64,000 bases of DNA from Luteitalea pratensis (GTDB taxonomy: Bacteria > Acidobacteriota > Vicinamibacteria > Vicinamibacterales > Vicinamibacteraceae): the NCBI RefSeq assembly GCF_001618865.1, contig NZ_CP015136.1, positions 965,001 to 1,029,000 of the forward strand, written 5' to 3'. Under the pieces are notes generated by a model, which was not told the origin of the DNA, did not search any database, and was given only the letters and a program-made list of their open reading frames with translations. The position numbers and the translations under genes were made by a program. The number at the start of each line of letters is the position of its first letter. Within the stretch, counting starts at the first letter, position 1. Shown here in pieces: positions 11,121 to 51,100 of this stretch.

Positions 11121-11259
11121 ATGGGCGGGTTGCGCTGTCCCTGTTTTGTACCTGATACTCAGATTTCTATAGGATCTAGCGGTTTCTGGCGGTTCTGATC
11201 CGGCCTAAACCCTTGAGGGACGCGGGTTCGTCGGGAACGAATCCCACCCTCTCCGCCAA
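11121..11259 (+). repeat. Att-like repeat, left arm type A with tRNA-Ser-like core (copy 1)
   Basis: About 139 bp closely matching 42367-42504 (runs such as gtttctggcggtt and gatccggcctaaaccc are identical). It ends in the 3' half of a tRNA-Ser-like T arm plus acceptor and CCA at 11238-11258 (cgaatcccaccctctccgcc then a). It lies about 200 bp downstream of the toxin/immunity pair on the same strand. Confidence 0.8.
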
Positions 11260-13831: not shown

Positions 13832-16711
13832 TCAATGGCCGGTTCGCGCCCGCCCGTCAACGACGACGGTCACCGTCGAAGGCGGAACGCCGACCGAAGC
13901 GGCTCGCAGCAAGAAACGGCTGCCGCTGGCGCTCACGGCGTAACTCGCTACGAATGGCGCCAGCACTTCCGGCGAGCGGGTGGCGAAGAGCGGAGTCTGT
14001 GCGCCGTGCTCGAACCGCGAGCCGCTATTCACCGCGACGGCCATCATCGTGCCGTCCGCAGCGACATAGAAGAGCTCACGGCCATCCTGCCGCCACGTGG
14101 GCTGGGAGCCGCCGCGCGATGACACCAGCACCTTACCGGTCCCGTCCTGAAACGATTGCACGTAGACCTCGTACCGGCCCGATTCGTCCGAGGCGTACGC
14201 GACCCAGCGGCCGTTGGACGAGAGCCGCGCCTGTATCTGATTCTGAGGCGCCACGACCACGGGACGCCAGCGCGAGTCCGCCAGACGCACGGCGAACACG
14301 TCCCAGGCCATGCCGCCCGGAGCCGTGTAGAGCACCCACTCGCTATCGGGCGACCAGCTGGTCGGGAACATGTTCGTCTGGGACATCGACGGGACAATCG
14401 CGATGTCGCCGCCATTGCCGGCCACGGTCGTGCGATAGAGACGCGCCGCGCCATCTTCAATCGAGCTGAAGACCACCTGACGGCCGTCCGGCGCCCACAC
14501 GCCGAAATGGGCGGCGCCCGGAGCGAGCGTCACGCGGGACCGGTCGCCACTCCGCAGATCGATCATCGACAAGGCATCCTGCTGTGGCGAAGTCCGCTCA
14601 GTGACCAGGGCGCGTGCTCCATCGGGGGAGAGATCCAATGCGGTGTACTGACCTGACGGCAGGACGTGTTGGAGCACACGGCCAGCACGATCGACCAGAT
14701 CGAGATCGAAGGTCGGTCGGCCGTCGCCCGTCCAATAGGCGATCGTATCGGCGGCGGCCGACACCGGCAGCCACGCCGGTCCCCGGAGCGCGACAACGCG
14801 GTCGGGCAGCGCGATGGGCTGCCCGGAGAGCGTGGCGGAGGTCGGATCGAAGGGTTGGGCGGTCAGATTCCCGTCGCGTTCGAATAGCAGCCGGCCGGCT
14901 GCGTAAATCGGCCGCGCGGCCGAGGCGACTACGAACCGATGCCCCGGCGCGTCGAGCGAACCGACATAGGCGCCGTTGCGCGCCCGGTCGCGGCATCGCA
15001 TGTAGAACAGAAAATGGCGGCCGTCAGGGAGGAATTGCGGCCAGCGCTGTGCAAGCTCGCCCGCCGAGTCGTCAACTGCGGTCGCCGCGCTGGCTGGCCC
15101 ACCGTTCTCGGAGATGCGAAGCAGCGTCCGCCCGGGCCCGCTGAACAGCATCGTTCCGTGCGGGCTCCAGTCGCCGCCAGGGACGTCCTGGGCGGCATCG
15201 GCGAGCTCCTGTACCAAGCCGCTTTGAAGCGACACCCTTTTCAGTTTGCGATCGGCGAAGAACCCGATCGCCGATCCGTCCGGCGACCAGAACGGCCCAG
15301 TGGCGTGATCGGTTCCGGCGAGCGTGCGGCCACTGGTCGAGTCGAGCGGCCTGATCCAGAGACGCGACACCCGCGCCGCGTCGGCGACCACCAGCACCAT
15401 CTGGCGCGCGTCCGGCGACAACGCGAATTGCGGCGCGCCGGACACGTCGAACGGCGCCAGCGTCATGCCCTCGGGCGCGATGATCGACAGCCGCACGGGC
15501 GTCACGGTGGAGGCGGGCGCACGACTATTGCGGGTCGTGGTGAACACCGCGACCGCCAACGCAGTGGCAGCGATCACCCACGGGACGGACCTCAACACCC
15601 GCGAACGAGACGATGTCAGGTCGTGAGTGTCGGTTTGAAGTTCGGGCTCTGCCAGATCGACGATCGCATCACCGATATCACGCAGCCGCTTCGCCGGATC
15701 CTTCTGGAGGCAGTGCCGCATCACCCGAACCATCGAGCGCGGCGTGGTGACCGGCAGGAGCCCCCAGTCCGGCTCGCGCTCCAGGACCGCGGCCACCGTC
15801 TCAGCGAAACTGCCGCGTGTGAAGACGGCGCGTCCCGTCAACATCTCGAACAAGAGGCAGCCAAACGCCCAGATATCCGCTCTGGTGTCCACTGGCTCTC
15901 CGCGGGCCTGCTCGGGGCTCATGTAGCCGCCCGTCCCCACCACTGCGCCCTGACGGGTGTCGTCAGCCGGGCGCGCCGAAGATGACGCTGCGCTCGCGCG
16001 CGGCTTGACCAGCTTGGCCAGGCCGAAGTCGAGGACCTTCGCGCCGCTGCCCGTCAGCATCACGTTCGCGGGCTTGAGATCGCGGTGCACCACGCCCTGG
16101 CTGTGCGCGGCGTCGAGCGCCTGGATGATCTCGGTGGCGTATCGGCGTGTGGCCTCGAGTGGCATCGGGCCGCGGCGCAGCCGATCGGCGAGCGTCCCTC
16201 CTTCCAGGTACTCCATCACCAGATAGTCGATGCGGCCGCCGTGCTCGACGTCGAACAGCGTACAGATGTGGGGATGGCTGAGTGACGCGATCGTCCGCGC
16301 TTCGCGCTGAAACCGCGACCGAGACGACGGGTCAGGGGCCAGATCCGGCGCGAGCACCTTGAGCGCGACGGTCCGGCTCAATCGTGAGTCTACGGCTTTG
16401 TAGACCTGCCCCATGCTGCCGCGGCCGATGAGCTCGACGAGGTCGTAGGCGCCCAGGCGGGAACCCGGCGCGAGGTCAGCGTCCGAGGCACTGAGCTCGT
16501 GGAGCGAGGCCGTGGTCAGTCCCGCCATGGCATCTGCTGCAACAAAGTCGCCGGCGGCGTCGTGAGCGCCGAGCAGTGACTCGACTTCCCTGCGCAACGC
16601 GGCGTCGTTGCCGCACGCGTCGGCCACGAACGTTCCTCGCACGGCGGGCGTCTGCTCCAGTGCGGCGTGGAACACAGCCTTTACACGCGACCAGTCGGGA
16701 GTGTCGCTCAC
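13832..16711 (-). CDS. Serine/threonine protein kinase with TolB-like propeller
   Basis: A 959-aa membrane-anchored kinase. The start is GTG 16711, overlapping the sigma-factor stop in GTGA; the longer frame upstream is antisense-like sequence over the sigma gene. Residues 1-80 are the short N-terminal region common in these kinases; 88-355 are a Hanks-type kinase with G-R-G-S-M-G loop, Lys118, H-R-D with Asp211, D-F-G with Asp228 and an S-P-E-Q-A activation segment. One membrane helix follows (V-P-W-V-I-A-A-T-A-L-A-V-A-V-F, about 382-400), then a periplasmic PD40/WD40 propeller (S-P-D-G, W-S-P-D-G and L-S-P-D repeats). It probably couples an envelope signal to phosphorylation and to the cotranscribed sigma factor. 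Confidence 0.93.
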   Translation of the reverse strand: MSDTPDWSRVKAVFHAALEQTPAVRGTFVADACGNDAALRREVESLLGAHDAAGDFVAADAMAGLTTASLHELSASDADLAPGSRLGAYDLVELIGRGSMGQVYKAVDSRLSRTVALKVLAPDLAPDPSSRSRFQREARTIASLSHPHICTLFDVEHGGRIDYLVMEYLEGGTLADRLRRGPMPLEATRRYATEIIQALDAAHSQGVVHRDLKPANVMLTGSGAKVLDFGLAKLVKPRASAASSSARPADDTRQGAVVGTGGYMSPEQARGEPVDTRADIWAFGCLLFEMLTGRAVFTRGSFAETVAAVLEREPDWGLLPVTTPRSMVRVMRHCLQKDPAKRLRDIGDAIVDLAEPELQTDTHDLTSSRSRVLRSVPWVIAATALAVAVFTTTRNSRAPASTVTPVRLSIIAPEGMTLAPFDVSGAPQFALSPDARQMVLVVADAARVSRLWIRPLDSTSGRTLAGTDHATGPFWSPDGSAIGFFADRKLKRVSLQSGLVQELADAAQDVPGGDWSPHGTMLFSGPGRTLLRISENGGPASAATAVDDSAGELAQRWPQFLPDGRHFLFYMRCRDRARNGAYVGSLDAPGHRFVVASAARPIYAAGRLLFERDGNLTAQPFDPTSATLSGQPIALPDRVVALRGPAWLPVSAAADTIAYWTGDGRPTFDLDLVDRAGRVLQHVLPSGQYTALDLSPDGARALVTERTSPQQDALSMIDLRSGDRSRVTLAPGAAHFGVWAPDGRQVVFSSIEDGAARLYRTTVAGNGGDIAIVPSMSQTNMFPTSWSPDSEWVLYTAPGGMAWDVFAVRLADSRWRPVVVAPQNQIQARLSSNGRWVAYASDESGRYEVYVQSFQDGTGKVLVSSRGGSQPTWRQDGRELFYVAADGTMMAVAVNSGSRFEHGAQTPLFATRSPEVLAPFVASYAVSASGSRFLLRAASVGVPPSTVTVVVDGRARTGH

Positions 16712-17289
16712 CGGACGTCTCCCCCCGTCGTCAGCCGGCGGTACAGCCAAGCGCGTGCCATCTGCCATTCGCGCGTGATCGACGACCGCGACACTGCGAG
16801 CGCAGTGGCGATCTCGTCCTCTGACATTCCTGCAAAATATCGTAGCTCCACGATGTGCGCCTGCCGCTCGTCGAGCCGCTCGAGCTCCTCGAGCGCGGCG
16901 TGGAGCGCCAGCACATCGCAGGGCACCGGCGCCACGCGCCCGACTTCGTCGTCCAGGGCGACACGAAGGCCATGGTCCGGACGCTTGATCGCCAGCCGCC
17001 GGCGGGCGTGATCGACCAGCACGCGACGCATCATGCGGGCGGCGATCGCCAGGAAGTGAGCGCGGCTCTGCCAATCGACCCGCTGCTGATCGACCAGCCG
17101 CAGGTAGGTTTCGTGAATCAGGGCGGTCGGCTGCAGCGTGTGGTCACGCCGTTCGCGCCGCAGGCAGGCCGCCGCCCGGGCCCTGAGATCCCGATGCACG
17201 AGCGCGAACAGGTCGTCCCTCGCCTGAATGTCGCCGCGTCCCCAGGCCTGCAGCAGGAGGGTCCCGGCGCCGGGGTTGGGACCCGTCAC
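16708..17289 (-). CDS. ECF-like sigma factor of the Ser/Thr-kinase-linked type
   Basis: A 193-aa sigma-70-family factor starting at GTG. Region 2 includes H-T-L-Q-P-T-A-L-I-H-E-T-Y-L-R-L and F-L-A-I-A-A-R-M-M-R-R-V-L-V-D-H-A-R, a pattern diagnostic of the ECF class that sits beside kinases in Acidobacteriota and Planctomycetes. Region 4 is at about 130-185 (L-R-Y-F-A-G-M-S-E-D-E-I-A and V-S-R-S-S-I-T-R-E-W). There is no zf-HC2 anti-sigma gene; the overlapping kinase gene suggests control by phosphorylation instead. The two genes form an operon reading away from 17.4 kb. Confidence 0.92.
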   Translation of the reverse strand: MTGPNPGAGTLLLQAWGRGDIQARDDLFALVHRDLRARAAACLRRERRDHTLQPTALIHETYLRLVDQQRVDWQSRAHFLAIAARMMRRVLVDHARRRLAIKRPDHGLRVALDDEVGRVAPVPCDVLALHAALEELERLDERQAHIVELRYFAGMSEDEIATALAVSRSSITREWQMARAWLYRRLTTGGDVR

Positions 17290-18184: not shown

Positions 18185-18450
18185 CAATCAGGTGCAAGGC
18201 GCCGCGGCAGCGATGGCATTCCTGGCAATGCCGGCAACGTGCTTTCTATAAGTTACAGAATCTACAGGAGGTGATCGGGTCCGAATCCCACCCTCTCCGC
18301 CAGATTCCTCGCTTTTTTTTCAATAAGTTAAACGGATCAGCTGACGTTCGGGTGCAACGCGTGCGCGTTTCGCCGTGATGTTCGCCTCAGAAAATACGCC
18401 GAAACAGGCGTGTTTGGGGCCGACGCATTCCGCGAATGGCCGCGTGGGTG
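18185..18450 (+). repeat. Att-like repeat, left arm B, core and right arm C (copy 3)
   Basis: Left arm B starts with aatcaggtgcaaggcgcc, shared with 37.9 and 47.4 kb. It then has four GGCA units at 18206, 18215, 18224 and 18233, exactly 9 bp apart, and a degraded version of the palindrome at 18241-18265. The tRNA-Ser-like core is at 18282-18302. Right arm C (cgggtgcaacg, gtgatgttcgcctc, gaaacaggcg) closely matches 32079-32225. Confidence 0.78.
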
Positions 18451-18901
18451 CAATTGGAACCCTTACCGCCTGGCGTATCCGACCTCTAGGTTGGGTGTTA
18501 CGGCGCTGGAGGGTGGGGAACGATCACGTGGGGAGGCGGCGGGGAGTCGAACGTCAAATTTGTAAGCCGGTGAGCAACAATAAGTTACGAGTTGTTCCTG
18601 CTGAGATTCATACCCCCAGATTTACCCCCACACTAAGCGCGATACTTATTCTCCTCGCTCACTTGCCGGTAGTGGCGTGAGGCGCAACGACTTCACATCA
18701 ATCGCTGGGCACCTTGGCCGGGCTGAGGGGCAGAAGTCGCGCTCCCTATGTCGACTCCTGACTCGGACCGCGGCTGAGTCCGCGCGACCCCTTTAGCAGA
18801 ACCAAGTCGGGACGCTGGCATGCTCGCGGTAGTCGTCGCACCCGTCCTCGCTGCTGAGAACTCGCGCGCGAGAGTTCGGAATGTCCGCGGCGACGGCCGC
18901 G
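18451..18901. other. Intergenic stretch with paired TACCCCCA repeats
   Basis: AT-richer than the neighbours. It has two direct copies of TACCCCCA at 18611-18618 and 18623-18630, 12 bp apart, and caataagttac at about 18579. Such repeats are familiar near P4-type integrase attachment sites, from memory. No integrase gene is present. No coding region is seen before the CHAT gene stop at 18902. Confidence 0.45.
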
Positions 18902-21900
18902 CTACTGCCAGTCGCCGGACCCCACGAACGCGCCCCAATAGAAAGGATGCCCTCCAAGGCCGTGCGCCCGTCGCGCCCGCAGGACGGTCAGGGCCGCACC
19001 CCTTACGGCAGCGGAGGTATTCAGCTGCTTCAGCAGCCGGCCCGTGTAGAGCGCGGCCATCCACTGCCGGGTCGCGTAGTCCTCGACCGACCACAGGCTC
19101 ATGATCACAGTCCGGGCACCGGCCACCTGGAAGGCTCGTCGCAACCCGAAGACACCTTCGCCAACCCTGAGTTCACCCAGGCCGGTATCGCAGCCGGACA
19201 AAACGGCCCACTCGACACCATCCAGGTCCAGTGTGGCGACCTCTTCGGCGGTGAGCACGCCGTCCTCCTGGTCGGTTGCCGCGAGGCTCCGACGATTGGC
19301 GCCCGCCAAGGCGAGGCCGGATGTGAGGAGCGGATTTTCCCTGACAATCCGGGACGAGGTCACTGAGGCGGACGCCTGCGCCCCGTCCATCACCGATCGG
19401 CAGCGTTCGCCGAGGAAGAAGCCGTGCGTTGCCAGGTGCAGTACGCGACGGCCGGCCGCTTGGGTCTTGAAAGCCGACTCGCTCGCTCCAGCCCGCGTGA
19501 GCCGGGCGACGGCAGGAAGAGAGGCGTCGGGCGCGACGGCGTGACTCTGGGCCCAGACGGTTGTCACCTCGTCCACCTCCATCAAGGACGCGGGCAGGGA
19601 GTCGAATCGCATGGACTCGAAATCAGGGCACGGCGACCGAGGGCCACGATACGAGGCGATGGCTCCGACTGATGAGGGCGTGGACTCGTCGAATGCCGGA
19701 TCGCCCATCACGAGCAAGCCGCGCCCCCCGACCTTGCGCGAATCCGTCGACACGAGATCCCGCTCCGTGGAGAGGTAGTGGATCACTGGGCCCGATTCGA
19801 CCAGGTATTTGGACGTGCCGGTCGGCAGGGCGGCGAAGCTCACGAGGTGAAGCGCGCCATCCGGGACGATGAACACGCGCGTGGACGTCGCAAGATGGGG
19901 TGTCAGGGGATCCCAGATCTGGCGCCGGAGATCTGCGGCGACCCGGCGATAGGCAGCCTCACTGCGCGCCGCTCCCCTCCCGCCAGCCATGGCCTCTTGG
20001 GCGATCTGCTTGCGCCACTGCAAGACGAGTCCATCGATGTGAACAGCCGTGCCGAGCGGAACCACGGCGGGCCGCCGGTCGGCACCGCTGACGACGAAAG
20101 CCAGATACGCCGGCTCGGTTTCGCTCGCGGGTGTGCTGCCAGCGCCAGCGGCCGGCGGCGGCGCGTGATACCTGAGGAAACCCACCAGCGCGCTGTCGGA
20201 TGGCAAGGCCGCCGACACCGCGTCGAGGGAAATACCGGCTCTCGATTGGTCGTCTCGAAACCTGGCGCTGTGCTCCGCGAGCGCACGCTCCGCGCTTTCT
20301 TTCGCGGCTGTGGCCTCTTCGAGGAGGCGACGGTATCGCTCTGGAGGGTCATTGCGAACGCCGCGCACTGCGAGCGCGGCGAGGCGCTGCCGCGCCGCCC
20401 CCAGGGCAGCCGCACGTTCTACACCGTCCGATGCGTCGCCCACGGTGGCGGAACGATGGCGGGCCCCCACCTCGTCGAGCACGATCCCGCGGGCGCGTAT
20501 GACGGCGTCCCAGGCGCCTGTCAGCAACGCGCTGCCGCTCGGCTCGGTTGAGGCCAGGTGGAGCATCAGGTCCAGTTCTTCGCCGAACGATGCGGCATAC
20601 GCCAGCGCCTGGCGTTCAGGGAGCGTGCGAACCGTCAGTCGCAGGTGCTCCCGCGCGATGCTGGCGGCACGAGCCGCGAGGGCAAACGCCTCGACCCTGT
20701 CGTCGGCGCGGGCCATGAGTTCTGCCCGACTGCGGAGTGTGAGGACGAGGTCCGGGTGTTCCGGGCCCAGCGCCTCCTGCTGAATCGCCAGCGCCCGGGC
20801 CAGCAATGGCGCGGCGTTCTCGTCGCTGCCGGTCCTCGAGTGAAAGCGAGCCAGGTTCACCAGGCCCGTTGCCACCTTCGGGTGTTTCACTCCCAGCGAC
20901 TGCTCCCAGATGTTCAGCGCCCGCTCGTAGTGCCGCCTCGCCAGGTCGTTGTCCCCGCTGCGCGACAGCACGTCGGCGAGGTTCGCGGCGGCGGCTCCCA
21001 CCTCTGGATGATTGGGGCCGAGGAACCTCTCCTGGGCCGCAAGGGCTCGCTCGAACAAGGGCCGCGCTCGTCGGTGGTCCTCCGGGCTCGTAAGCACCGC
21101 TGCCAGATTGCGGAGACTTGCTGCCGTGCCCGGATCAGCGAGACCGCTGCTTCTCGCGCGCGAGGCAAGCGCTCTCTGAAAGAGGTCGATGTCATCCGAA
21201 TCGTAGCCGGACACGGGAAACAGGTCGGGTATGAACCAACTGGCGCGAGCCCGGTCCGGATCCGAGGGCTGCAGCGCCTCCTCGTTGATCCGGGTGGCAC
21301 GCTCGAACAATGCCATTCCCTCGGCATAGCGGCCCAGTCCTGCGACGATCGTCGCCAGGGTGTGCAGACTCATCGCCACTTCGGGGTGTTTCGGCCCGAG
21401 CGCCAGCTCCGCAATCGCCAGCGCTCGCCGCGCCGCGCGCTCTGCCGCCGCGTAGTCGCCGAGATCGCGGAGATCCGTGGCCAGATGCTCCAACGGTGTC
21501 GTGAGGCGCATATCAGTGGCGCCGTACGCCTGGTCGCTCAACTCCACCAGCCGTTCATTCAATCGTGCAGACCCCTCGAAATCACCTCCCAGATCACTCA
21601 GCACGACTGCCACACCGGTCAGAACATGGAGGGTCAGGATGTTGGGCGGGCCGGCGAACCTTGCGGCCAGTACGCCGGCACGCTCGAATCGCTGTCGCGC
21701 GGCAGCATAGTCGCCAGTCCGTTGATAGAAAATCCCGAGATTGACGAGCGTCCGGACCGTCTCCGGATTGCCCTCGCCGAGCGTCGCCTCGCGGATTCGC
21801 TGCGACCGCTCGAGCAGAAGCTTGGCGGCGTCGTCGTCCCGGACTGCTATCAACAGGCCGCCTAGGGCCTGAAGTCCCGCAGCAACGGAGAGGTGATTCG

Positions 21901-22405
21901 GACCGAATGCCGACTCTCGAATCGCGATCGCCCGCTCGATCAAGGGTCGTGCGGGACCTATGTCGCCAACCAGAGCCCGCTCAACGCCGAGGTTGATCAG
22001 GCTGGTCGCCACCTCGGGGTGCAGAGGACCGAGCGCTCTCTCCCTGATCGCGAGGGCCCGTTCGGCCATCGCGATCTTCTCCTCTGCCGGCACCCTGGGC
22101 GACCGGCGCACCGCTCGGCCGAGCAGATCGAGGACCTGGGCCACTTCCAGGGCGTCGCGCCCCCTGGTGCTCTCCACTCTGGGCAACAGCACCCGTGCGA
22201 CGTTCTCGGCCTCGATTCCCCTTCCCCGCTCGAGGAGCTTCGTGATCATCTCCAAGGCGTCGGCCAGGCCGGGCATCTGCGTGCTTGTCTGACCCGACGA
22301 TGATTGCGCCTTGACGTCCGGCGGCGAGAGACCAACAACCGCGGAGAGGGACAGAAACAGGCTCGTCAAGATGCCGACCACCGTGCTGCGCAGTTGTGGG
22401 GTCAC
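18902..22405 (-). CDS. CHAT-domain protein with tetratricopeptide repeats
   Basis: A 1167-aa exported or membrane-anchored protein. The start is GTG 22405, overlapping the upstream receptor stop (GTGA). Residues about 10-33 are a hydrophobic leader. Residues about 40-590 are tandem TPRs of the 42-residue long type (A-L-A-I-x-E-x-x-L-G-P-x-H-P-E-V). The C-terminal 300 residues are a CHAT peptidase of clan CD with His994 in H-L-A-T-H-G-F-F and Cys1072 in L-S-G-C-D-T-G-L-G, followed by G-x-x-x-L-x-R-A-F and S-L-W-S-V. The catalytic pair is intact, so it is probably an active caspase-like protease. As last gene of the sigma/anti-sigma/TonB operon it may act in envelope regulation; the substrate is unknown. 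Confidence 0.92.
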   Translation of the reverse strand: MTPQLRSTVVGILTSLFLSLSAVVGLSPPDVKAQSSSGQTSTQMPGLADALEMITKLLERGRGIEAENVARVLLPRVESTRGRDALEVAQVLDLLGRAVRRSPRVPAEEKIAMAERALAIRERALGPLHPEVATSLINLGVERALVGDIGPARPLIERAIAIRESAFGPNHLSVAAGLQALGGLLIAVRDDDAAKLLLERSQRIREATLGEGNPETVRTLVNLGIFYQRTGDYAAARQRFERAGVLAARFAGPPNILTLHVLTGVAVVLSDLGGDFEGSARLNERLVELSDQAYGATDMRLTTPLEHLATDLRDLGDYAAAERAARRALAIAELALGPKHPEVAMSLHTLATIVAGLGRYAEGMALFERATRINEEALQPSDPDRARASWFIPDLFPVSGYDSDDIDLFQRALASRARSSGLADPGTAASLRNLAAVLTSPEDHRRARPLFERALAAQERFLGPNHPEVGAAAANLADVLSRSGDNDLARRHYERALNIWEQSLGVKHPKVATGLVNLARFHSRTGSDENAAPLLARALAIQQEALGPEHPDLVLTLRSRAELMARADDRVEAFALAARAASIAREHLRLTVRTLPERQALAYAASFGEELDLMLHLASTEPSGSALLTGAWDAVIRARGIVLDEVGARHRSATVGDASDGVERAAALGAARQRLAALAVRGVRNDPPERYRRLLEEATAAKESAERALAEHSARFRDDQSRAGISLDAVSAALPSDSALVGFLRYHAPPPAAGAGSTPASETEPAYLAFVVSGADRRPAVVPLGTAVHIDGLVLQWRKQIAQEAMAGGRGAARSEAAYRRVAADLRRQIWDPLTPHLATSTRVFIVPDGALHLVSFAALPTGTSKYLVESGPVIHYLSTERDLVSTDSRKVGGRGLLVMGDPAFDESTPSSVGAIASYRGPRSPCPDFESMRFDSLPASLMEVDEVTTVWAQSHAVAPDASLPAVARLTRAGASESAFKTQAAGRRVLHLATHGFFLGERCRSVMDGAQASASVTSSRIVRENPLLTSGLALAGANRRSLAATDQEDGVLTAEEVATLDLDGVEWAVLSGCDTGLGELRVGEGVFGLRRAFQVAGARTVIMSLWSVEDYATRQWMAALYTGRLLKQLNTSAAVRGAALTVLRARRAHGLGGHPFYWGAFVGSGDWQ

Positions 22406-25400
22406 CAATACAACCTGACGCCGACTTGAATCTCACGCGCCGGCCGCGCGCTCACGACCTGGCCGAATCTGGATCCCGGCCGGGCGCATGTGGTCGTGCC
22501 TCCACAGCTCGACGCGACATCGAGAAACTGCGTCTGGTTGAACGCGTTGATCAGGTCGGTTCGAAGCTGCAAACGTGTCGTGCCGCCCAGACTCACGCTC
22601 TTCGACACGGCGAAGTCCCACTGATGGCGGCCGGGCAGACGGAACGGCGCGATAGGGGCGTCGCCATACTCGCCGCCGGGCGATGGCACGAACGCCGACG
22701 GGTCGAACCAGAGCAGGCCGTTCTGCTCGCCAGCCGCCGGATCGCCCACCTGATTGGGCCGCAGCGCGCCTGGAAAGCACGACCCGTTGTAGTTGCAGTT
22801 GGCGATCTGAAGTCGAGCAGCGGGGCCTGATTCGATCCGGGTAATCCCCGCGATCTGCCACCCTCCGAACAGGTGCGTCCTCCAGCCCCCTGAATCGCCG
22901 CGCCCGAATGGGAGTTCGTAGACGTAAGACGCGGTGAAGATGTGCGTGCGGTCCGTACGCGCCGCGCCAAACTCGCTGGTCCTGTCGAGCGGGTTCTGGG
23001 GATCGTCCATTTCCGAGTTGTCGTAGGTGGCGTCGGCTGCACTCCGACTGAGGGTGTAGCTCACCAGTGCCGAACCGGCGCGACCGGCCTCATGACGAAA
23101 GCTCGTCGCGAGCGCGTGATACCGGCTCATAGCGGTCGTTTCGCGCATGACGATCGCGTGGTAGCCCTGAAAGGGCCGCACCAAGTGCGCTTGCCCGTCC
23201 CGTGCCAGAACGTCGTCCGGCTGGGGTTGGTTGATGTCCACAGACCTCAGCAGATGATCGCCGCGAGAGCCGAGGTAGCCGACATCGATCATCCCGCGGG
23301 AGTAGAGCCGTCGCTGCATCCCGACGTTCCATTGTTGCCATCGAGGCGCCACGAACCGGTCGGTGGTGGACAGGGCCACGGGAGTCAACACCGCAAACGG
23401 AGTGATCACCATGCCGGCGGCAGGATCTGACAGCGGCGGATTGCCGACGACGAGGTCGGTGCGAAATGGGTCGTAAAAGGACTCCTGCACGTTCTGGGCG
23501 ACCATGCCCGCCTGCGTGTGATCGAAGTACATCCCGTACCCGGCGCGGACAATCAGACGCCCGGCGCCGCGCGGATCCCATGCCGCCCCGATGCGTGGCT
23601 GCAAGTTGTTCGTGTCCGCGGCATAGAGGGCACGCCCATGCGGTGAGTCCTTGCCGGCGATGCGAATGCCGTTGAAGAGGTTGCCCGTCCCGGATAGCAC
23701 GAAGAAACCATCCGGGTCGGCAAACGTGGGCGCCTGAGTGGGGTCGTATGCGTCCGGCGAAAAGGCAAAGAGCTTGTCGTCGGCATCGGTCAGGGGCGGG
23801 TAGAACGCGTAGCGGAGTCCCAGATCGAGCGTGACGTTGCGAAGGATTCGCCACGTATCCTGGGCAAAGAGCTCGTACCGGCCAGAGCGGAACCTGTTGA
23901 CGACGTCGATGTCTGTTTCGGCATAGGTGCAGGATTCTCCGCATGTACCGGCCGCGTTGCCCTGAAGAAAGTTCTGAAATGCGGTCGAGCCGTCGCTCCC
24001 CTGAAAGTTGAAGGACCCTTGTGTCCTATCTGCAAAGAGATTCGAGTTCACGTGCTCGAACGCCGCGAGTCCACCAGCCTTCAGCACGTGCGTACCGCGC
24101 TCGAGCGTGAGAGCGGAACTGAAGGTGTGATTGAGATATTCGCGCGGAAACGGCTGCAGCCCGTCGAGCGGGGTTAGACCACCCACAAAGACGGATGGAA
24201 TGAGGCCTGCCACGTTTTCGGGAAAGATCTCTGGAATCAGCACGCCGGCCTCATCTCGCGTGAGCATACGGTCGTCGCGGCCTTGCCGATGCACCGACAG
24301 CTGGTAGGACAACTCGTGCAACAGTCGCCCGCCCGCTCTGCGCGTCTCTACCACTGCGAGCTGGCCGAGTGAGGAGCGATGTCCCGGCGATAGATCCGGC
24401 ACCACAAGATACTCGCCGTACGAGTCCACCTGGTCACGCAGATAGCGGCCGGTCAACGACCACGTCGCCGTCATGTTGTAGTCGGCGCGCACGAACTCCT
24501 GCCGGGTGAGGAGCTGATTCGTGATCGTCGTCCGATACTGATTCGTGCCGGGGACATTCGGCGCAGGCCAGAGCGCCAGAAGCCTCACCGCATTGGCGTC
24601 CCGCAACTCGGGCGCCACGTAGTTGACGCTGCTCGGATCGGTGAGCCACGTTGGGTCGGGAACCGGAAAAGGCCCACTGGATTCTTTGTCCCGATGGCTC
24701 CGCCGCCACTCCTCCGAGAAGAAGAAGAACAGCTTCTTGCGATCCGGGAGTACCGGACCCCCAATCGTGTACCCGAAGTTGTTGTAGCGGAGTCGCGGCG
24801 GGGAACTGTTGATCTGTTCTTGCGGACTCATGTTGCGGAAGAACGAATTGGCGTTCAGCGCGTCGTTGCGCAGGAACTCGTACGCACTGCCGGAGAACCG
24901 GTTGCTGCCGGACTTGGTCACCGCATTGACCACGCCGCCACCATTGCGTGCCCATTCAGCCCCGTAGCTGCTGGTGATGACGTTCACCTCCTGGATCGCT
25001 TCGAGTGAGGGCGTTGTCACCAGGGTGTAATTGTTCCACCCGTTGACGTTCGAGGCGCCATCGAGCAGCCAGTTGACGGCGCTGCGGCGAGCCCCGTTGA
25101 TCGAGATGTCCAGGTTCCCCTGGTCGCAGAAGCAGGCGTCCTCCCGGAGGTCGCTCGAGACGCCCGGCACGAGCGTGACGAGCTGGACGAGCGTGCGGGT
25201 CAGCAGCGGCAACTCCTGGATGGCGGCCAGAGGGACCAGATGTCGGACCGTGGCGGTCGGTTGCACGAGGCGCTCCGCGGTCACCGTCAGAGCGTCCACC
25301 GCGCCGACGACCAGCTTGCCATTCACCTGCAGGCGATCGTTGACGTGGAGGGAGATCCCGCGTGCCGTGAACGGTTGAAAGTTCGGCAGCAGAAAGCTGA

Positions 25401-25644
25401 TCTCGTAGTTGCCGACCGGAACGCTGGCGCTGTACTGGCCAACGTGGTTGGTGGCGACTTCGCGGATGCGGCCGGTGTCGACACTCGTGATGACGACCTT
25501 GACCTGAGGTAGCACCGCTCCGGTCTGGTCCACGAGCTCACCCAGGATCGTGCCGCTCGTCTCCTGCGCGGATGTCGGCACGGACAACGGCACCAGCAGC
25601 AGCGCACAAACGATCGCGAATCGAGCAACCAGGGGAAACGTCAT
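22402..25644 (-). CDS. TonB-dependent receptor, Oar-like, with carboxypeptidase-regulatory domain
   Basis: An outer-membrane receptor of 1080 aa. ATG 25644 is preferred over an ATG 39 bp upstream because a GGAGGAGA site and a classical signal peptide follow (F-A-I-V-C-A-L-L-L-V-P-L-S-V-P-T-S-A-Q). Residues about 30-115 are a CarboxypepD_reg/CNA-B-like domain (G-E-L-V-D-Q-T-G-A-V-L-P); about 115-240 a plug domain (D-I-S-I-N-G-A-R-R-S, S-Y-G-A-E-W-A-R-N-G-G-G-V-V-N), then a long beta barrel ending in an aromatic (R-L-Y-W). The substrate is unknown; Oar-type receptors may import or export peptides or glycans. It overlaps the CHAT gene by 4 bp. Confidence 0.93.
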   Translation of the reverse strand: MTFPLVARFAIVCALLLVPLSVPTSAQETSGTILGELVDQTGAVLPQVKVVITSVDTGRIREVATNHVGQYSASVPVGNYEISFLLPNFQPFTARGISLHVNDRLQVNGKLVVGAVDALTVTAERLVQPTATVRHLVPLAAIQELPLLTRTLVQLVTLVPGVSSDLREDACFCDQGNLDISINGARRSAVNWLLDGASNVNGWNNYTLVTTPSLEAIQEVNVITSSYGAEWARNGGGVVNAVTKSGSNRFSGSAYEFLRNDALNANSFFRNMSPQEQINSSPPRLRYNNFGYTIGGPVLPDRKKLFFFFSEEWRRSHRDKESSGPFPVPDPTWLTDPSSVNYVAPELRDANAVRLLALWPAPNVPGTNQYRTTITNQLLTRQEFVRADYNMTATWSLTGRYLRDQVDSYGEYLVVPDLSPGHRSSLGQLAVVETRRAGGRLLHELSYQLSVHRQGRDDRMLTRDEAGVLIPEIFPENVAGLIPSVFVGGLTPLDGLQPFPREYLNHTFSSALTLERGTHVLKAGGLAAFEHVNSNLFADRTQGSFNFQGSDGSTAFQNFLQGNAAGTCGESCTYAETDIDVVNRFRSGRYELFAQDTWRILRNVTLDLGLRYAFYPPLTDADDKLFAFSPDAYDPTQAPTFADPDGFFVLSGTGNLFNGIRIAGKDSPHGRALYAADTNNLQPRIGAAWDPRGAGRLIVRAGYGMYFDHTQAGMVAQNVQESFYDPFRTDLVVGNPPLSDPAAGMVITPFAVLTPVALSTTDRFVAPRWQQWNVGMQRRLYSRGMIDVGYLGSRGDHLLRSVDINQPQPDDVLARDGQAHLVRPFQGYHAIVMRETTAMSRYHALATSFRHEAGRAGSALVSYTLSRSAADATYDNSEMDDPQNPLDRTSEFGAARTDRTHIFTASYVYELPFGRGDSGGWRTHLFGGWQIAGITRIESGPAARLQIANCNYNGSCFPGALRPNQVGDPAAGEQNGLLWFDPSAFVPSPGGEYGDAPIAPFRLPGRHQWDFAVSKSVSLGGTTRLQLRTDLINAFNQTQFLDVASSCGGTTTCARPGSRFGQVVSARPAREIQVGVRLYW

Positions 25645-25679
25645 GCACTCTCCTCCGTGCGGCCTGCGCCTGAACGATG

Positions 25680-26504
25680 TCACCGCTCGTCGAGCCGCTT
25701 GATGGCAGCGAGCAGTGTTCGGGCCTCACTCGTCCCTGTCCCCTGAAGCTGGATCAGCGTGCGCAACTCCGCTTCGGCGGCAGCAGGACGTTTCTGCCGC
25801 AGCAGCGCCTTGGCGAGGTACCAGTGCGCTTCTTCCAGGTAGGGGGAATCGCCGAGCGCTGTCGTGGCACGCAGCTCGGCGATCGCAGCGATGTCCTGGC
25901 CAGCCATGAGATGAGCGATGCCCAGAAAGAACCGGATGTGGGTCGCGTCGGGCGCCAGCGCCGCAGCGCCACGAAGCTCGGCGACGGCCGCGGGGTAGTC
26001 AGCCTGTTGGTACCGTGCCATCCCGGCCTGGAAGCGCGACGTCGCTTCGTCTGGCGCGCCGCGCAGCGTCAATGGCTGGTACGGCGGTGCTTCGACAAGG
26101 GCGAGCTGCTCCAGCGAAGGTCCGGCCGTCAGCGGCGGTGGCGGTGTCGGGGACTGTGACGCCTCTGGTCGTTCTGCTTGCGACGCCGGCCGCGTCTCGG
26201 CCGTGCCTGATAAGCCCGGAGGTGTCGGTGATCGCATCCACACCGCCGATCCGACCATCAGGACGATTGTGGCGGCCAGTCCGGCGAAGGAGAGCCATCG
26301 GAGCGATGACGATGCCTTCGCAAGGGCAGGGTCAGCATCCACTCGAGGCAACTCCCGCTGGATCGTTTGCAGCATCTGCAAATCTTTCAAGCAGCGCTCA
26401 CACTCGAAGAAGTGTTGCTCGAACGAGTCACGGTCCTCGTCGCTCAACCGGCCCAGGAGGTAGCCCTCGAGGAGTTCCTCGCGTGCCACCCTCTCGCAGT
26501 TCAT
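25680..26504 (-). CDS. zf-HC2 anti-sigma-like protein with TPR tail
   Basis: A 274-aa single-pass membrane protein. The N-terminal zinc-binding anti-sigma motif is visible as H-F-F-E-C-E-R-C (His-x3-Cys-x2-Cys) near residues 31-38, the signature of zf-HC2 anti-sigma factors. A membrane helix lies at about 70-90 (L-S-F-A-G-L-A-A-T-I-V-L-M-V-G-S-A-V-W). A Pro-rich linker leads to periplasmic TPR-like repeats (about 150-270: R-F-Q-A-G-M-A-R-Y-Q-Q-A-D-Y-P-A-A-V, then A-H-W-Y-L-A-K-A-L-L). It lies 50 bp downstream of the sigma gene and 35 bp upstream of the receptor. It likely holds the sigma factor at the membrane and reads the envelope through its TPRs. Confidence 0.88.
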   Translation of the reverse strand: MNCERVAREELLEGYLLGRLSDEDRDSFEQHFFECERCLKDLQMLQTIQRELPRVDADPALAKASSSLRWLSFAGLAATIVLMVGSAVWMRSPTPPGLSGTAETRPASQAERPEASQSPTPPPPLTAGPSLEQLALVEAPPYQPLTLRGAPDEATSRFQAGMARYQQADYPAAVAELRGAAALAPDATHIRFFLGIAHLMAGQDIAAIAELRATTALGDSPYLEEAHWYLAKALLRQKRPAAAEAELRTLIQLQGTGTSEARTLLAAIKRLDER

Positions 26505-26555
26505 CGTCGGCCTCGCCGGATCATGTGGGCCTCGCAGGAACTAGTGGTCGGAGAT

Positions 26556-27152
26556 TCAGGTTCGTGACAGGTTCTTGACACGTTCTGTCGTTCTCTTCAG
26601 CGCGCGCGATTTCCGCGTGCGCACGACTTCGGGCGTAAGGCCGAGCCGCCGGGCGATCTCGCCAGGCTTCAGCCCCTCCACGAGGGTCAGCAGCAGGATG
26701 GTCCGGTCGGTCAGGTCGAGGGCGCGGAGCGCGCGTCGCACCAGCCCCAGGCGCTCCTCGGCGTCCGCGGTGTCGGGTTGCAGCGCCAGAGGGAGCGCGG
26801 CATCGAGAGGGTCTTCCTTGAGTCGGGTCCGGGTGCGCAGATAGTTGTTGATCAGGTTGCGTGCGATGCCATACACGAACGCCGCCAGGCGTTCGGACTC
26901 GTGCAGTTGGCCGGCCCGAACCGCACGAAAAACGGCCAGCATCACATCTTGCGCCACGTCTCGTGCCGCCTCGCGATCGCGCGTGCGAGCGAGCGCCATG
27001 AACATCACCCTGTCGGCAAAGAGGCGCACGAGCTCCTGCTCTGCGGCCGGTACGTGGCTGCGGATTCCCTCAGCCAGACTGCTCTGCTGCTGAGGCGTGA
27101 GTAGCGCGATCGGGGCGCCAGCCGCTGTTCCGCCGAAGTCGAACATTGGCAT
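26556..27152 (-). CDS. ECF-type RNA polymerase sigma factor
   Basis: A 198-aa sigma-70-family factor. Region 2 spans about 40-110 (V-A-Q-D-V-M-L-A-V-F-R-A-V, then F-V-Y-G-I-A-R-N-L-I-N-N-Y-L-R), region 4 about 140-195 (L-T-D-R-T-I-L-L-L-T-L-V-E-G-L-K-P-G-E-I-A-R-R-L-G-L). The final box R-T-R-K-S-R-A-L-K-R fits DNA recognition. It heads a four-gene operon running to 18902 and probably drives it and other envelope genes. The intergenic 27153-27413 is shared with the divergent cupredoxin gene and should hold both promoters. Confidence 0.9.
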   Translation of the reverse strand: MPMFDFGGTAAGAPIALLTPQQQSSLAEGIRSHVPAAEQELVRLFADRVMFMALARTRDREAARDVAQDVMLAVFRAVRAGQLHESERLAAFVYGIARNLINNYLRTRTRLKEDPLDAALPLALQPDTADAEERLGLVRRALRALDLTDRTILLLTLVEGLKPGEIARRLGLTPEVVRTRKSRALKRTTERVKNLSRT

Positions 27153-32290: not shown

Positions 32291-32569
32291 ATGACGATTG
32301 ATCGGAACCGCGAAGAAATCCTCCGCATCGCCGCACTGCACGGCGCGCGGAACGTGCGCGTGTTCGGTTCGGTTGCACGCGGCGATGACCGGGCCGACAG
32401 CGACGTCGATCTATTGGTCGATATGGAAGACAACCGATCGCTCCTCGATCTCGTCGGGCTCGAGCAGGACCTCGAAGATCTCCTCAGGCGCGACGTGGAC
32501 GTCCTGACCGATGCCAGCATCCATCCAGACCTTCGCCTGCGGATCTCTGCTGAAGCCCGAGCTCTGTGA
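32291..32569 (+). CDS. mntA: MntA-like nucleotidyltransferase antitoxin
   Basis: A 92-aa minimal nucleotidyltransferase. The active-site signature G-S-V-A-R-G-D then S-D-V-D-L-L-V (G-S-x10-D-x-D) is intact at about residues 26-43. In MntA/HepT modules this enzyme adds AMP to the HepT toxin and neutralises it. The length and strand order fit the family. The stop overlaps the HepT GTG start (GTGA). The toxin next door is broken, so this copy is probably a free-standing leftover or could act on another HepT. Confidence 0.88.
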   Translation: MTIDRNREEILRIAALHGARNVRVFGSVARGDDRADSDVDLLVDMEDNRSLLDLVGLEQDLEDLLRRDVDVLTDASIHPDLRLRISAEARAL

Positions 32570-34204: not shown

Positions 34205-34406
34205 ACCAGCGGGCAATGGCGGGCAATGCGCGACGGCAACCACGGCATTCATGGCAATCGCGGCAATGTAGTTTCTGAAAGTTACAGATTCTAAAGGACC
34301 TGGCAGAGTTCGAATCCCACCCTCTCCGCCATCCACACCTCCTGTGTCTCGGCGTCCCGCGCCTCCCTATAGAACGCAGCCGCAGGCGAAACCTTACCGG
34401 CCTCGA
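34205..34406 (+). repeat. Att-like repeat, left arm B, core and right arm D (copy 5)
   Basis: GGCA units at 34235, 34244, 34253 and 34262 are exactly 9 bp apart, with two looser units at 34212 and 34222. A palindrome relic spans 34269-34293. The tRNA-Ser-like core 34311-34331 is intact. Right arm D (ccacacctcc, gcgaaaccttac) resembles that at 11260. The combination B with D differs from copy 3 (B with C). Confidence 0.78.
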
Positions 34407-48170: not shown

Positions 48171-51100
48171 ATGCCCACTGCTTTCCTGATCACACCGTTT
48201 TCGCCAGCCCGAGCCGGGGGCGAGCAGGCGCACGTGTACGACGCGGTGCAGCGAGCTGTCGCCGACGCCGTCACGTCCGCTGGACTGGAGCTCGTCAATC
48301 CAAAGGAAATGGCGGCCGCGGGCCCGATCGCGGACATGGTCCTGCAGGCGATTGACGAGGCAGACGTCGTCATCGCCATTCTGACCGGCAACAATCCCAA
48401 CGTCTTCTTCGAACTGGGACGGGCTCGCCAGGCAGCGGCGATTCTCATTTCTGAAAGCGTAGACAACATTCCATTCGACGTCAGACACCTGCGGGTGTTG
48501 ACCTACGACTCAGAGGCCGCCCTTTCGACGCTTTCCGGCCGGCTCGAGGCCGCCATTCGCGCGACGAGGGCGACACGGCCGATACCAAGGCTGCCGGCGT
48601 TGAACCGGCCTGACTATCGCAGCGAGATCGACCACATCATCTCCTATCGCACCACGATTTTCATCGGTCGCGACGAGGATCTTGCGATGGTGGCGCGCGT
48701 TGCGGAGGAGCGCGAACCCAAGTACCTGCTTGTGAGTGGCGGCGCCGGCACGGGCAAGTCGGCCCTCGTCGCCGAGCTCGTTCGCCGTCACGAGGAGCGT
48801 CGTTGGCCCACGGCGATTAGGCCACGGCTGCTTTTTGTGTTCGTGCGTCAAGAAGGCGGCGCCAACCGCTCGATCGACTTCATGCGCGCTCTGAATGCGC
48901 AGATGCTCGCCTTATCCGATGCCGACGAACCGATCGCATTCGAGTCGCCGGCCATAGAGACGCAGTTCGCCAGGCTCTGGACATCGTCGATGCAGCTCGC
49001 GCGCGCGGAGGATCCATTGCTGCTGCTGGTCGACGGTCTGGACGAGGCCGCCGTCGAAGGGAGCGCCGATGTCATCAGACACCTGCCATCGACGTTGACG
49101 AACTACGTTCACGTAATGGTGACGTCGCGACCGTCGCCGGACCCGAGGTTGCGCGTCGACCTGGGCCATCCACTCAGAGGGGCGCAGGCGCATGAACTGC
49201 GTGCCTTCACAGTCGGCGAGGTTGAAGAACTGCTGCGCTCGATGGGCGCAACCCCACCAGAACTGTCGGCGCTTGCCCGCCGGGTGTGGAAAGCGACGAA
49301 GGGACTTCCACTGCTGGCGAGATTTGTAAGCAAGGACGCGGTGTCCGATGTCAGTCGCCTCGATGCACTCGAGAACAATCCCCCGACAGACATCCGCGAC
49401 TATTTCGTCAAGCAGTTCGAGCAGTTGGATGCGATCGCCGAAACGAAGGACTCAGCATGGGCTGTCTTTCGCACGTTCGTCGTCGGTCTCGGGCCGATGA
49501 CGACCGAGGACCTCACCGAGATCCTCGGCTGGAGCAAGAACCAGGTCGTGAAGGCCATCGCCGCTGGAGAGCGCTTCCTCGTATCCGGTCAGGATGGCTG
49601 GGAATTGATGCACGTCGAACTGCGACGTGTGCTCCAGGAACGACAGTTCTCCTCGCGCGAGCTGGGCGATGCGAAACAGGGTGTGGTGGCCTGGTGCAGG
49701 ACCTATCAGGCGAAGGGCTGGCCGAGCACAACGCCTGTATATGTCCTGCGATATTTCCTGCGGCACCTCAGTGAACGAGAAGAGGATCGCAGCGTCGTCG
49801 ATGCCTGCGCCGCGGGGTATCTCGAGGCCAAACTGGAGCGGCTCCTGTCGCCGAGAGACTTCGAAGATGACTACTCGGTCCTGCTGACATCGTGCGTCCG
49901 GCTCGCCGATCGCGAGGCCTTGTATGCCTTTACTCAGCGGCGCGCCCGCCTCGCAGATGAAGTCGCTGTTCTCGCCCGACTTGAGCAGTGGCTCGATGTG
50001 TTCGGACAGGTCGTCCAGTCTCGTGAGAGCGTCGCCTGGCGGCGATGGGTGGTCATCTGCGTCCTTGGCCAGCGGCCGATTGGACTGCTGAATCTCTGTG
50101 CGGGGTTGACACCGGATGGCACTCACCCGACGGAGATTTTCGACTCGGCCGAGGCGCTCATAGTGACGCTGGCATTGGGCGACACGCGCGATCAGGCGAC
50201 CCACCGTCTGGTGCGGGAGCTTACCCGCTGGGGTGCGGTGCCTCTCGCGCGGGCGCGTCGCCTGTGCGAATCGATTGGCGCACCGCACGTCCGCGCCAGC
50301 GCGAACCGGTTGATCGCGTCCGGGTATGCGGAGGCCGGCCAGCCACCGAACGCCTTGGCCGCCTTGACTCGAAGTCTGAGCGAGGTCGAGCAAGTGCTCC
50401 GGTCCGGGAAGGACGAAAGTTCGATTCTTGCCACGTTCATCGAGATCGCTCAAACGTTCCCGACAGTCGGTGCCAAAGACGACGCGAAGGCGGGACTCGA
50501 CCACGTCGTGTCGCTCTCGAGCCTCATAGCCAACCCCGAGTCGGCGTCGAAGGTCGTCACGGCCGCTTCACATGGTTTCGCCGTGCTGGGCGATACCACT
50601 CGAGCGACGAGTCTTCTGATCCAGACGCTCATTGAAGGCCGCCCATCGCGGTTTGCCGGCATCACCCCAGCCCAGGCGACCAGCGCGATCGTCGAACACT
50701 CGAACATCGCTGGCGCTTCCCTGGAAATTCGCGGAATCCTCGAGCGGATTTCTGAAGCCGTCGGCCATGTCGCTGACCGAGCCGTACAGGCGCAGGTTCT
50801 TGCCGCCGTGGCTCATGGCTACGCGACGTGTGGGGATATGGACGTCAGCAGCCAAGTACTCGCTCGCGCAATCACGGCCGGGGCTCCGTCGGGAGAATCG
50901 GGTGACGACGTCTCGGCGTGCGTCGATACGTACGGCGGCCTGGCCACGGATGATGCGCAGGCGTGTCTCGATCGCGTGCGGGCCACGCTCGAGTCCATCT
51001 CGAACGGCCAGGAGCACACGGAACTCGCATCGCTGCTCGCTCGCGGATATTCGATGGCGGGGCGCGACGACATCGCTTGTGACCTGCTGGATCGGGAGTT

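Follow-up and report, generated by a model that had tools for sequence, protein, structure and literature searches.

Among described systems, DdvS-DdvA of Myxococcus xanthus (PDB 8rot, 8rw5) comes closest to the locus considered here, a run of four genes in Luteitalea pratensis (Acidobacteriota) that encodes an extracytoplasmic function (ECF) sigma factor, a membrane anti-sigma factor, an outer-membrane barrel and a tetratricopeptide repeat (TPR) protein with a CHAT domain. The locus lies in a window of 64,000 nt (contig NZ_CP015136.1, positions 965,001 to 1,029,000), which is the whole stretch of DNA that was analysed and forms part of a single-contig genome of 7.48 Mb. The TPR-CHAT part of DdvA is reportedly periplasmic, its His-Cys site is said to be incomplete and autoproteolysis in trans has reportedly been proposed for it. 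DdvS is reported to gain activity once DdvA is inactivated (PMC4374960). The window resembles this system in having an ECF sigma factor under a membrane anti-sigma factor and, encoded near the sigma gene, a TPR-CHAT protein with a signal-peptide-like start and a modelled separase/Craspase fold. DdvA is one polypeptide, whereas the window has a separate anti-sigma factor and CHAT protein, each with its own TPRs and with the barrel gene between them; single-chain forms of the DdvA kind are met in relatives (loci L119, L121, L130, L132 and L141), not in the window. What is new relative to the known DdvS-DdvA kind is this splitting of the anti-sigma factor and CHAT into two proteins. Searches of an open-access library turned up no paper on an acidobacterial module split in this way between a zf-HC2 anti-sigma factor and a CHAT protein; the main DdvA papers may discuss such relatives. 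The central finding, which is firmly supported, is that the sigma, anti-sigma and CHAT genes form a conserved unit that recurs across the phylum.

CHAT proteins have been connected with ECF sigma factors in other settings. Csx29, a TPR-CHAT protease, cleaves Csx30, an inhibitor of an ECF sigma factor (PMC10028731). Like Csx29 in Craspase, the protein of the window is a TPR-CHAT protein with a His-Cys dyad, and Csx29 is its best structural match; unlike it, Csx29 is RNA-activated through Cas7-11, whereas the protein of the window has a signal-peptide-like start. No Cas family was found among 27 window proteins scanned with Pfam, a subset of the open reading frames of the window. CHAT genes, together with subtilase genes, also stand beside ECF54 sigma factors that are without an anti-sigma factor, and proteolytic control has been proposed there (PMC8999054). 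The likeness to ECF54, a CHAT gene beside ECF sigma genes, was drawn from gene context and not from the sigma sequence; unlike ECF54, the window has a membrane zf-HC2 anti-sigma factor and a predicted exported CHAT protein. A cytoplasmic-looking version consisting of a sigma factor, a CHAT protein without an export signal and a soluble zinc-finger protein was seen at L085, L100, L107, L111 and L115, and resembles the ECF54 contexts; at L100, a subtilase-like open reading frame (by eye) comes next.

All four genes of the locus lie on the minus strand. The ECF sigma gene (26556-27152; 198 residues; open reading frame and Pfam) is the first gene of the operon and is separated by 51 bp from the anti-sigma gene (25680-26504; 274 residues), which encodes a zf-HC2 domain, one transmembrane stretch, a proline-rich linker and TPRs (open reading frame, Pfam, hydropathy and alignment). 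The third gene, for an Oar-like TonB-dependent outer-membrane barrel, spans 22402-25644 from an ATG, but a GTG at 25683 is also possible, in which case it overlaps the anti-sigma gene by 4 bp; by eye, the ATG, which is preceded by GGAGGA, looks the better candidate. The TPR-CHAT gene (18902-22405) encodes 1167 residues of a predicted exported protein from a GTG at 22405, with a TTG at 22408 also open; both of these genes were assigned from open reading frames and Pfam, and their full open frames run over 22402-25683 and 18902-22408. An earlier reading made from the letters of this DNA alone (hereafter the original prediction) had proposed a receptor-to-protease-to-sigma switch for this operon. 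The tight spacing that it described is borne out by the positions of the reading frames, as is the GTGA common to the barrel end and the CHAT start, provided that the CHAT protein begins at GTG 22405.

The sigma protein matches Sigma70_r2 (2e-9) and Sigma70_r4_2 (6e-11) in Pfam, and the anti-sigma protein matches zf-HC2 and TPR families. The zinc-finger motif H31-x3-C35-x2-C38 (26391-26414, minus strand) is invariant in eight of eight aligned TPR-type anti-sigma factors. It is followed by a single hydrophobic stretch at about residues 70-88 (26241-26297, minus strand), predicted from hydropathy to cross the membrane. The TPRs come after this stretch and are directly preceded by the conserved linker motif PPYQPLTLRG (26058-26087, minus strand; alignment), and in a single-sequence model residues 151 to 270 form a block with a predicted local distance difference test (pLDDT) score of about 87-97. 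Zinc motif and TPRs placed beyond the membrane stretch agree with what had been predicted for this protein.

The CHAT protein was assigned to TPR_12 and CHAT (E 7e-63) in Pfam. Its N-terminus (22304-22405, minus strand) is signal-peptide-like, its TPRs are kinesin-light-chain-like, and its CHAT domain (18911-19945, minus strand; Pfam, alignment and model) contains His994 (codon 19424-19426) and Cys1072 (codon 19190-19192). By alignment, and numbered from GTG 22405, these are exactly the two residues named in the original prediction; the full open frame adds nine codons in front, and there they are 1003 and 1081. A model of residues 571-1167 (pLDDT 82) matched Csx29 best (Z 25.6; also Craspase), followed by human separase (22.3) and DdvA (19.5 over 339 residues), and for a sequence profile of the linked CHAT proteins DdvA was the best PDB match (E 2e-18). 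A PDZ domain was detected in one linked CHAT protein (E 2.5e-11). PDZ-TPR-CHAT proteins were noted at L065 (5723-9385), directly after a membrane zf-HC2 anti-sigma factor, and at L080 (5783-9409), where the PDZ match is under the Pfam cut-off; DegS too carries a PDZ domain. Tandem runs of four or five CHAT-containing frames occur at the cyanobacterial loci L234, L241 and L243.

Linkage was surveyed by searching Pfam CHAT in 60 genomes (that of L. pratensis and 59 relatives) and scanning the surroundings with sigma, zinc-finger, CHAT and barrel profiles; about ten weak or fragmentary CHAT matches are not among the surveyed regions. For a 3-kb test, 56 of the 76 CHAT genes were used, the other 20 being omitted for short flanks, and 68 random pseudo-genes of the same genomes served as controls, with 6 of 40 control windows dropped because they overlapped CHAT loci, flanks or each other. 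A sigma gene was found within 3 kb of 32/56 CHAT genes and 7/68 controls (p 2e-8), a zf-HC2 gene near 25/56 and 2/68 (p 1e-8), and both near 24/56 and 2/68; the profiles were built from the proteins of the window and partly trained on case loci, so that they may favour these loci and Acidobacteriota, and in this as in every other count, cases that share a genome or a genus are not independent of each other. The low background agrees with the Pfam counts for the 7.48-Mb genome itself, which has 40 sigma-region-2 and 7 zf-HC2 matches. In a hand count among the best 80 CHAT homologues from named genomes, a sigma or zinc-finger gene lay within 3 kb at 13 of 25 acidobacterial loci vs 1 of 55 others, a contrast that the Acidobacteriota-trained profiles may inflate and that includes many short-flanked loci in both groups. 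For this count, Aminicenantes were entered as Acidobacteriota and two 'bacterium' records as others; L203 is apparently the contig G056:C13.

When the survey was made from the anti-sigma side, 20 TPR-type anti-sigma factors from across the phylum were examined and 12 had a CHAT gene within 3 kb, a result that is not wholly independent, since the profile used (A2) comprised eight anti-sigma factors, seven of them CHAT-linked (that of G029 by inference). With G000 and G011 set aside, the 20 were drawn from the top 22 places, G062:C143 and G064:C298 being omitted. Pairs were met in tandem, divergent and reordered layouts, and elsewhere tail-to-tail; hence, adjacency outlives gene order. The conserved linkage of CHAT, sigma and anti-sigma genes, on which the original prediction depended, is thus strongly supported from both sides.

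Physical partnership of the anti-sigma factor and CHAT is indicated by fusions, by a match of compartments, by co-inheritance and by the fold of the CHAT half described above. A zf-HC2-like finger, a transmembrane stretch and CHAT occur in one open frame at L119, L121, L130, L132 and L141; these five fusions come from three genomes and two families and have at least two ectodomain types. Of 38 modules whose anti-sigma factor is membrane-bound, 37 have a CHAT protein with a predicted export signal or anchor, vs none of four with a soluble one, in a hand-curated table whose classes were hand-assigned and whose four soluble cases are one related group. In this table, the transmembrane stretch of L096 was accepted by eye at a hydropathy of 1.42 (cut-off 1.6), and the soluble protein of L085 reaches its maximum, 1.54, within the zinc finger; L072, L074, L079, L082, L087/L143, L088, L095, L102 and L113 were omitted for an uncertain anti-sigma factor or a truncated CHAT. 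L100, a fifth soluble case whose CHAT protein is without an export signal, stands outside the counted table. Localisation of the CHAT protein away from its proposed partner would have spoken against the original prediction; as judged from these predicted signals, the compartments match instead. Sigma and CHAT distances are also correlated across 42 modules, fused ones included (r 0.62), as against 0.16 +/- 0.07 in within-genome shuffles, of which 0/5000 were as high.

It could be argued that four common acidobacterial gene families have come together by chance, given how rich these genomes are in sigma and Oar-like genes. The control windows, the converse survey, the co-divergence and the fusions refute this for sigma, anti-sigma and CHAT, though not for the barrel, whose place rests on two genomes, and for the locus as a whole a chance neighbourhood is extremely improbable.

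The reading preferred here, to which we give a probability of about 0.52, is that of a split, trans-acting system of the DdvS-DdvA type, in which a periplasmic CHAT protein inactivates the anti-sigma factor; sigma, anti-sigma and TPR-CHAT would be its conserved core and the barrel a lineage-specific addition. The cytoplasmic zf-HC2 domain of the anti-sigma factor would hold the sigma factor, while the TPR ectodomain would reach into the periplasm. The CHAT protein would be exported to the same compartment, form a complex with the anti-sigma factor and act on it in trans. After an envelope signal, CHAT, probably a protease of the caspase/separase type, would clip the ectodomain or the linker, and clipping would lead to intramembrane proteolysis and, in the last step, to release of the sigma factor. 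This order of steps recalls RseA-DegS-RseP: the anti-sigma factor is single-pass by hydropathy, as RseA is, and the pathway would naturally begin with a periplasmic protease dedicated to it. Unlike that system, the candidate first protease is of the caspase/separase-type cysteine class rather than trypsin-like, and the anti-sigma factor is of the zf-HC2/TPR kind. M50 (site-2) proteases were matched at three places in the L. pratensis genome, which is weak evidence for the intramembrane step because all 14 control genomes match too. Proteolytic control is the best but an unproven mechanism.

Several findings weigh against this reading. Neither a sigma nor a zf-HC2 neighbour was found for 23/56 CHAT genes, and the TPR-type anti-sigma factors of G011:C5 and G023:C29 have no CHAT nearby. 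Close homologues of the CHAT protein of the window are paired otherwise, with another anti-sigma type at L084 and with only a sigma gene, 2.1 kb away, at L095. In four genomes of the genus, that of L. pratensis included (G000, G001, G002 and G004), CHAT is convergent with a paralogous sigma/anti-sigma operon, and co-expression is therefore not given. Many CHAT-linked anti-sigma factors have, by eye, beta-sandwich-like ectodomains instead of TPRs. A common recognition site is therefore not evident, and recognition of anti-sigma TPRs by CHAT does not hold as a general rule. Arg148 of the linker is conserved in 29/30 TPR-type anti-sigma factors, but also in 9/10 of those without a detected CHAT neighbour (4 of the 10 near contig ends), and it may therefore be structural. 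The linker motif with Arg148 is thus a candidate cleavage or docking site, but not one specific to CHAT; the Arg as a CHAT-specific cut site was dropped as unsupported, since it is retained where CHAT is not a neighbour. His and Cys are likewise retained in 31 CHAT proteins without a detected sigma or zinc-finger neighbour, so that their retention speaks for catalysis and not for the anti-sigma factor as substrate. Finally, three of the five fusions, all of one genus, have lost both His and Cys, while two keep both; proteolysis is therefore not always needed, and in some forms binding alone must suffice.

The last point bears on the view that CHAT is a non-proteolytic sensor or co-inhibitor, a TPR-CHAT scaffold that would bind some ligand or protein and would shield the anti-sigma factor, stabilise it or pull on it, with catalysis dispensable. 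The three fused zinc-finger, transmembrane and TPR-CHAT proteins without His and Cys have kept their architecture, two of these three (L132 and L141) adjoin a sigma gene, and the ectodomains of linked anti-sigma factors vary, all of which fits a binding role. On the other hand, both residues are intact, by alignment, in 40/40 separate (unfused) linked CHAT proteins and in the two other fusions, which argues for selected catalysis in trans; a purely non-catalytic role is decidedly unlikely. A rule that fused CHAT proteins are always dead had been considered and fell with these two further fusions. Loss of His and Cys was seen as well at L125, L126, L127, L128, L131 and L135, where no sigma or zinc-finger neighbour was detected; from their sequences, they seem to make up a pseudo-CHAT family of their own within the order.

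The direction of control could also be reversed, with CHAT as output: the sigma factor would turn on an exported caspase-like effector for envelope remodelling, defence or cell death, and the effector gene would simply stay by its regulator. A transmembrane anti-sigma factor and an ECF sigma factor are reported to control a CBASS-CRISPR-Cas island (a title in the reference list of PMC12288465). The CHAT genes often run in the same direction as the sigma and anti-sigma genes and lie downstream of them, and the island array that contains the present operon also holds a NACHT/TPR protein of the STAND type (see below). We take the pair that controls the CBASS-CRISPR-Cas island to be DdvA-DdvS. CHAT as output is nevertheless unlikely, as the fusions and the compartment match indicate a physical partnership, adjacency persists while gene order changes, and the arrangement in the four genus genomes is convergent. 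No common ECF promoter upstream of both sigma and CHAT was evident by eye. At L086, L092, L097 and L098, all of one genus, the start codon of CHAT follows within a few bases of a TATAGTCG-like element, by eye the arrangement of a leaderless promoter.

In the window, the barrel gene separates the anti-sigma gene from the CHAT gene, and a TonB-dependent outer-membrane protein thus adjoins sigma and anti-sigma genes as in FecA-FecR-FecI. In a mechanism of that kind, the TonB-dependent protein would relay an uptake signal to the anti-sigma factor, and CHAT would be a bystander. Unlike that system, neither an STN domain in the barrel nor a FecR domain in the anti-sigma factor was detected with Pfam at E up to 1e-3. 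The barrel protein matched CarboxypepD_reg and OMP_b-brl_4, with Plug sub-threshold; what had been called a TonB receptor is indeed a TonB-type barrel, but an Oar-like one in which the signalling domain was not detected. Barrel genes within 3 kb are not enriched (8/56 CHAT genes vs 11/68 controls), as counted with a profile that detects only part of the Oar-like genes. One relative, G029, has a barrel of 66% identity: its sigma, anti-sigma and barrel genes lie at the end of one contig, which ends about 45 bp past the barrel, and another contig begins inside the orthologous CHAT gene (62%), so that the same four-gene order is likely, as pieced together across two contig ends. The next seven barrel relatives, of 46-51% identity and from other genomes, have no CHAT or zinc-finger genes in the stretches seen; among them a sigma gene is present only at L327, about 4.5 kb away, and a contig end truncates the opposite flank of that locus.

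As a general mechanism, signalling from receptor to sigma factor by way of the barrel was rejected on the undetected STN domain, the missing enrichment and the neighbourhoods of the relatives, and Fec-like signalling at this locus is very unlikely. The barrel is apparently a lineage-specific addition to the operon, its place in the module being common to one relative at most, and a role as output or cargo is more probable for it than one as a general receiver of signals. The switch of the original prediction therefore survives in part: the CHAT/anti-sigma/sigma leg is favoured by linkage, fusions and compartments, and the receptor leg is unsupported.

The operon is probably part of a tandem island array anchored on tRNA-Ser. 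A repeat search found att-like copies of the tRNA-Ser 3' end at one border of the operon's segment (18280-18302, plus strand) and on its far side (34309-34331, plus strand), and four further direct copies on the plus strand at 11238, 13553, 42483 and 63573 bring the number in the window to six. The tRNA-Ser(CGA) gene whose 3' end they repeat is found a short way beyond the window edge (G000:C1:962977-963067). With up to one mismatch allowed, the genome holds nine matches, seven of them, the tRNA gene included, within 66 kb and two elsewhere, and the reversed pattern has no match in the whole genome. Pfam detected no tyrosine integrase from 0.69 to 2.1 Mb, the window included. In the four relatives of the same genus that were searched, the CHAT gene of the window lacks a close counterpart (best E 3e-15). 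In the operon's own segment, 32291-32566 (plus strand) encodes a 92-residue MNT-like nucleotidyltransferase (NTP_transf_2; PADLOC candidate PDC-S09, 7e-35). In a neighbouring segment, the 2254-residue protein of 48171-54935 (plus strand) combines AAA_16/NACHT with TPRs and, from its matches to PADLOC STAND_TPR (5e-28) and a TIR-effector model (1.7e-7), appears to be a defence-like STAND NTPase. A different sigma-control unit, 13832-17289 (minus strand), has a second ECF sigma factor (Sigma70_ECF), directly followed by a Ser/Thr kinase that bears PD40 propeller repeats. A repeat of about 115 bp at 18532-18646 recurs eleven times, in full or in part, within 3.16-3.44 Mb of this genome.

To our knowledge, most bacterial CHAT/separase-fold proteases described so far belong to CRISPR or defence systems. 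A split module spread across a phylum would show a TPR-CHAT protein acting on a sigma inhibitor outside CRISPR, and would offer a route to CHAT substrates, namely the neighbour gene. It would also supply natural variants, with intact split, dead fused, cytoplasmic and periplasmic versions, in which binding and catalysis are separated. It may be suggested, tentatively and as something short of probable, that Acidobacteriota use a secreted, separase-like TPR-CHAT protein as the dedicated first protease on membrane anti-sigma factors, acting in trans and with exchangeable sensor add-ons (PDZ, TPR, beta-sandwich-like, barrel). Cis-fused DdvA-like anti-sigma factors and the RNA-gated Craspase would then have arisen from it or parallel to it, and fusion could free CHAT from catalysis.

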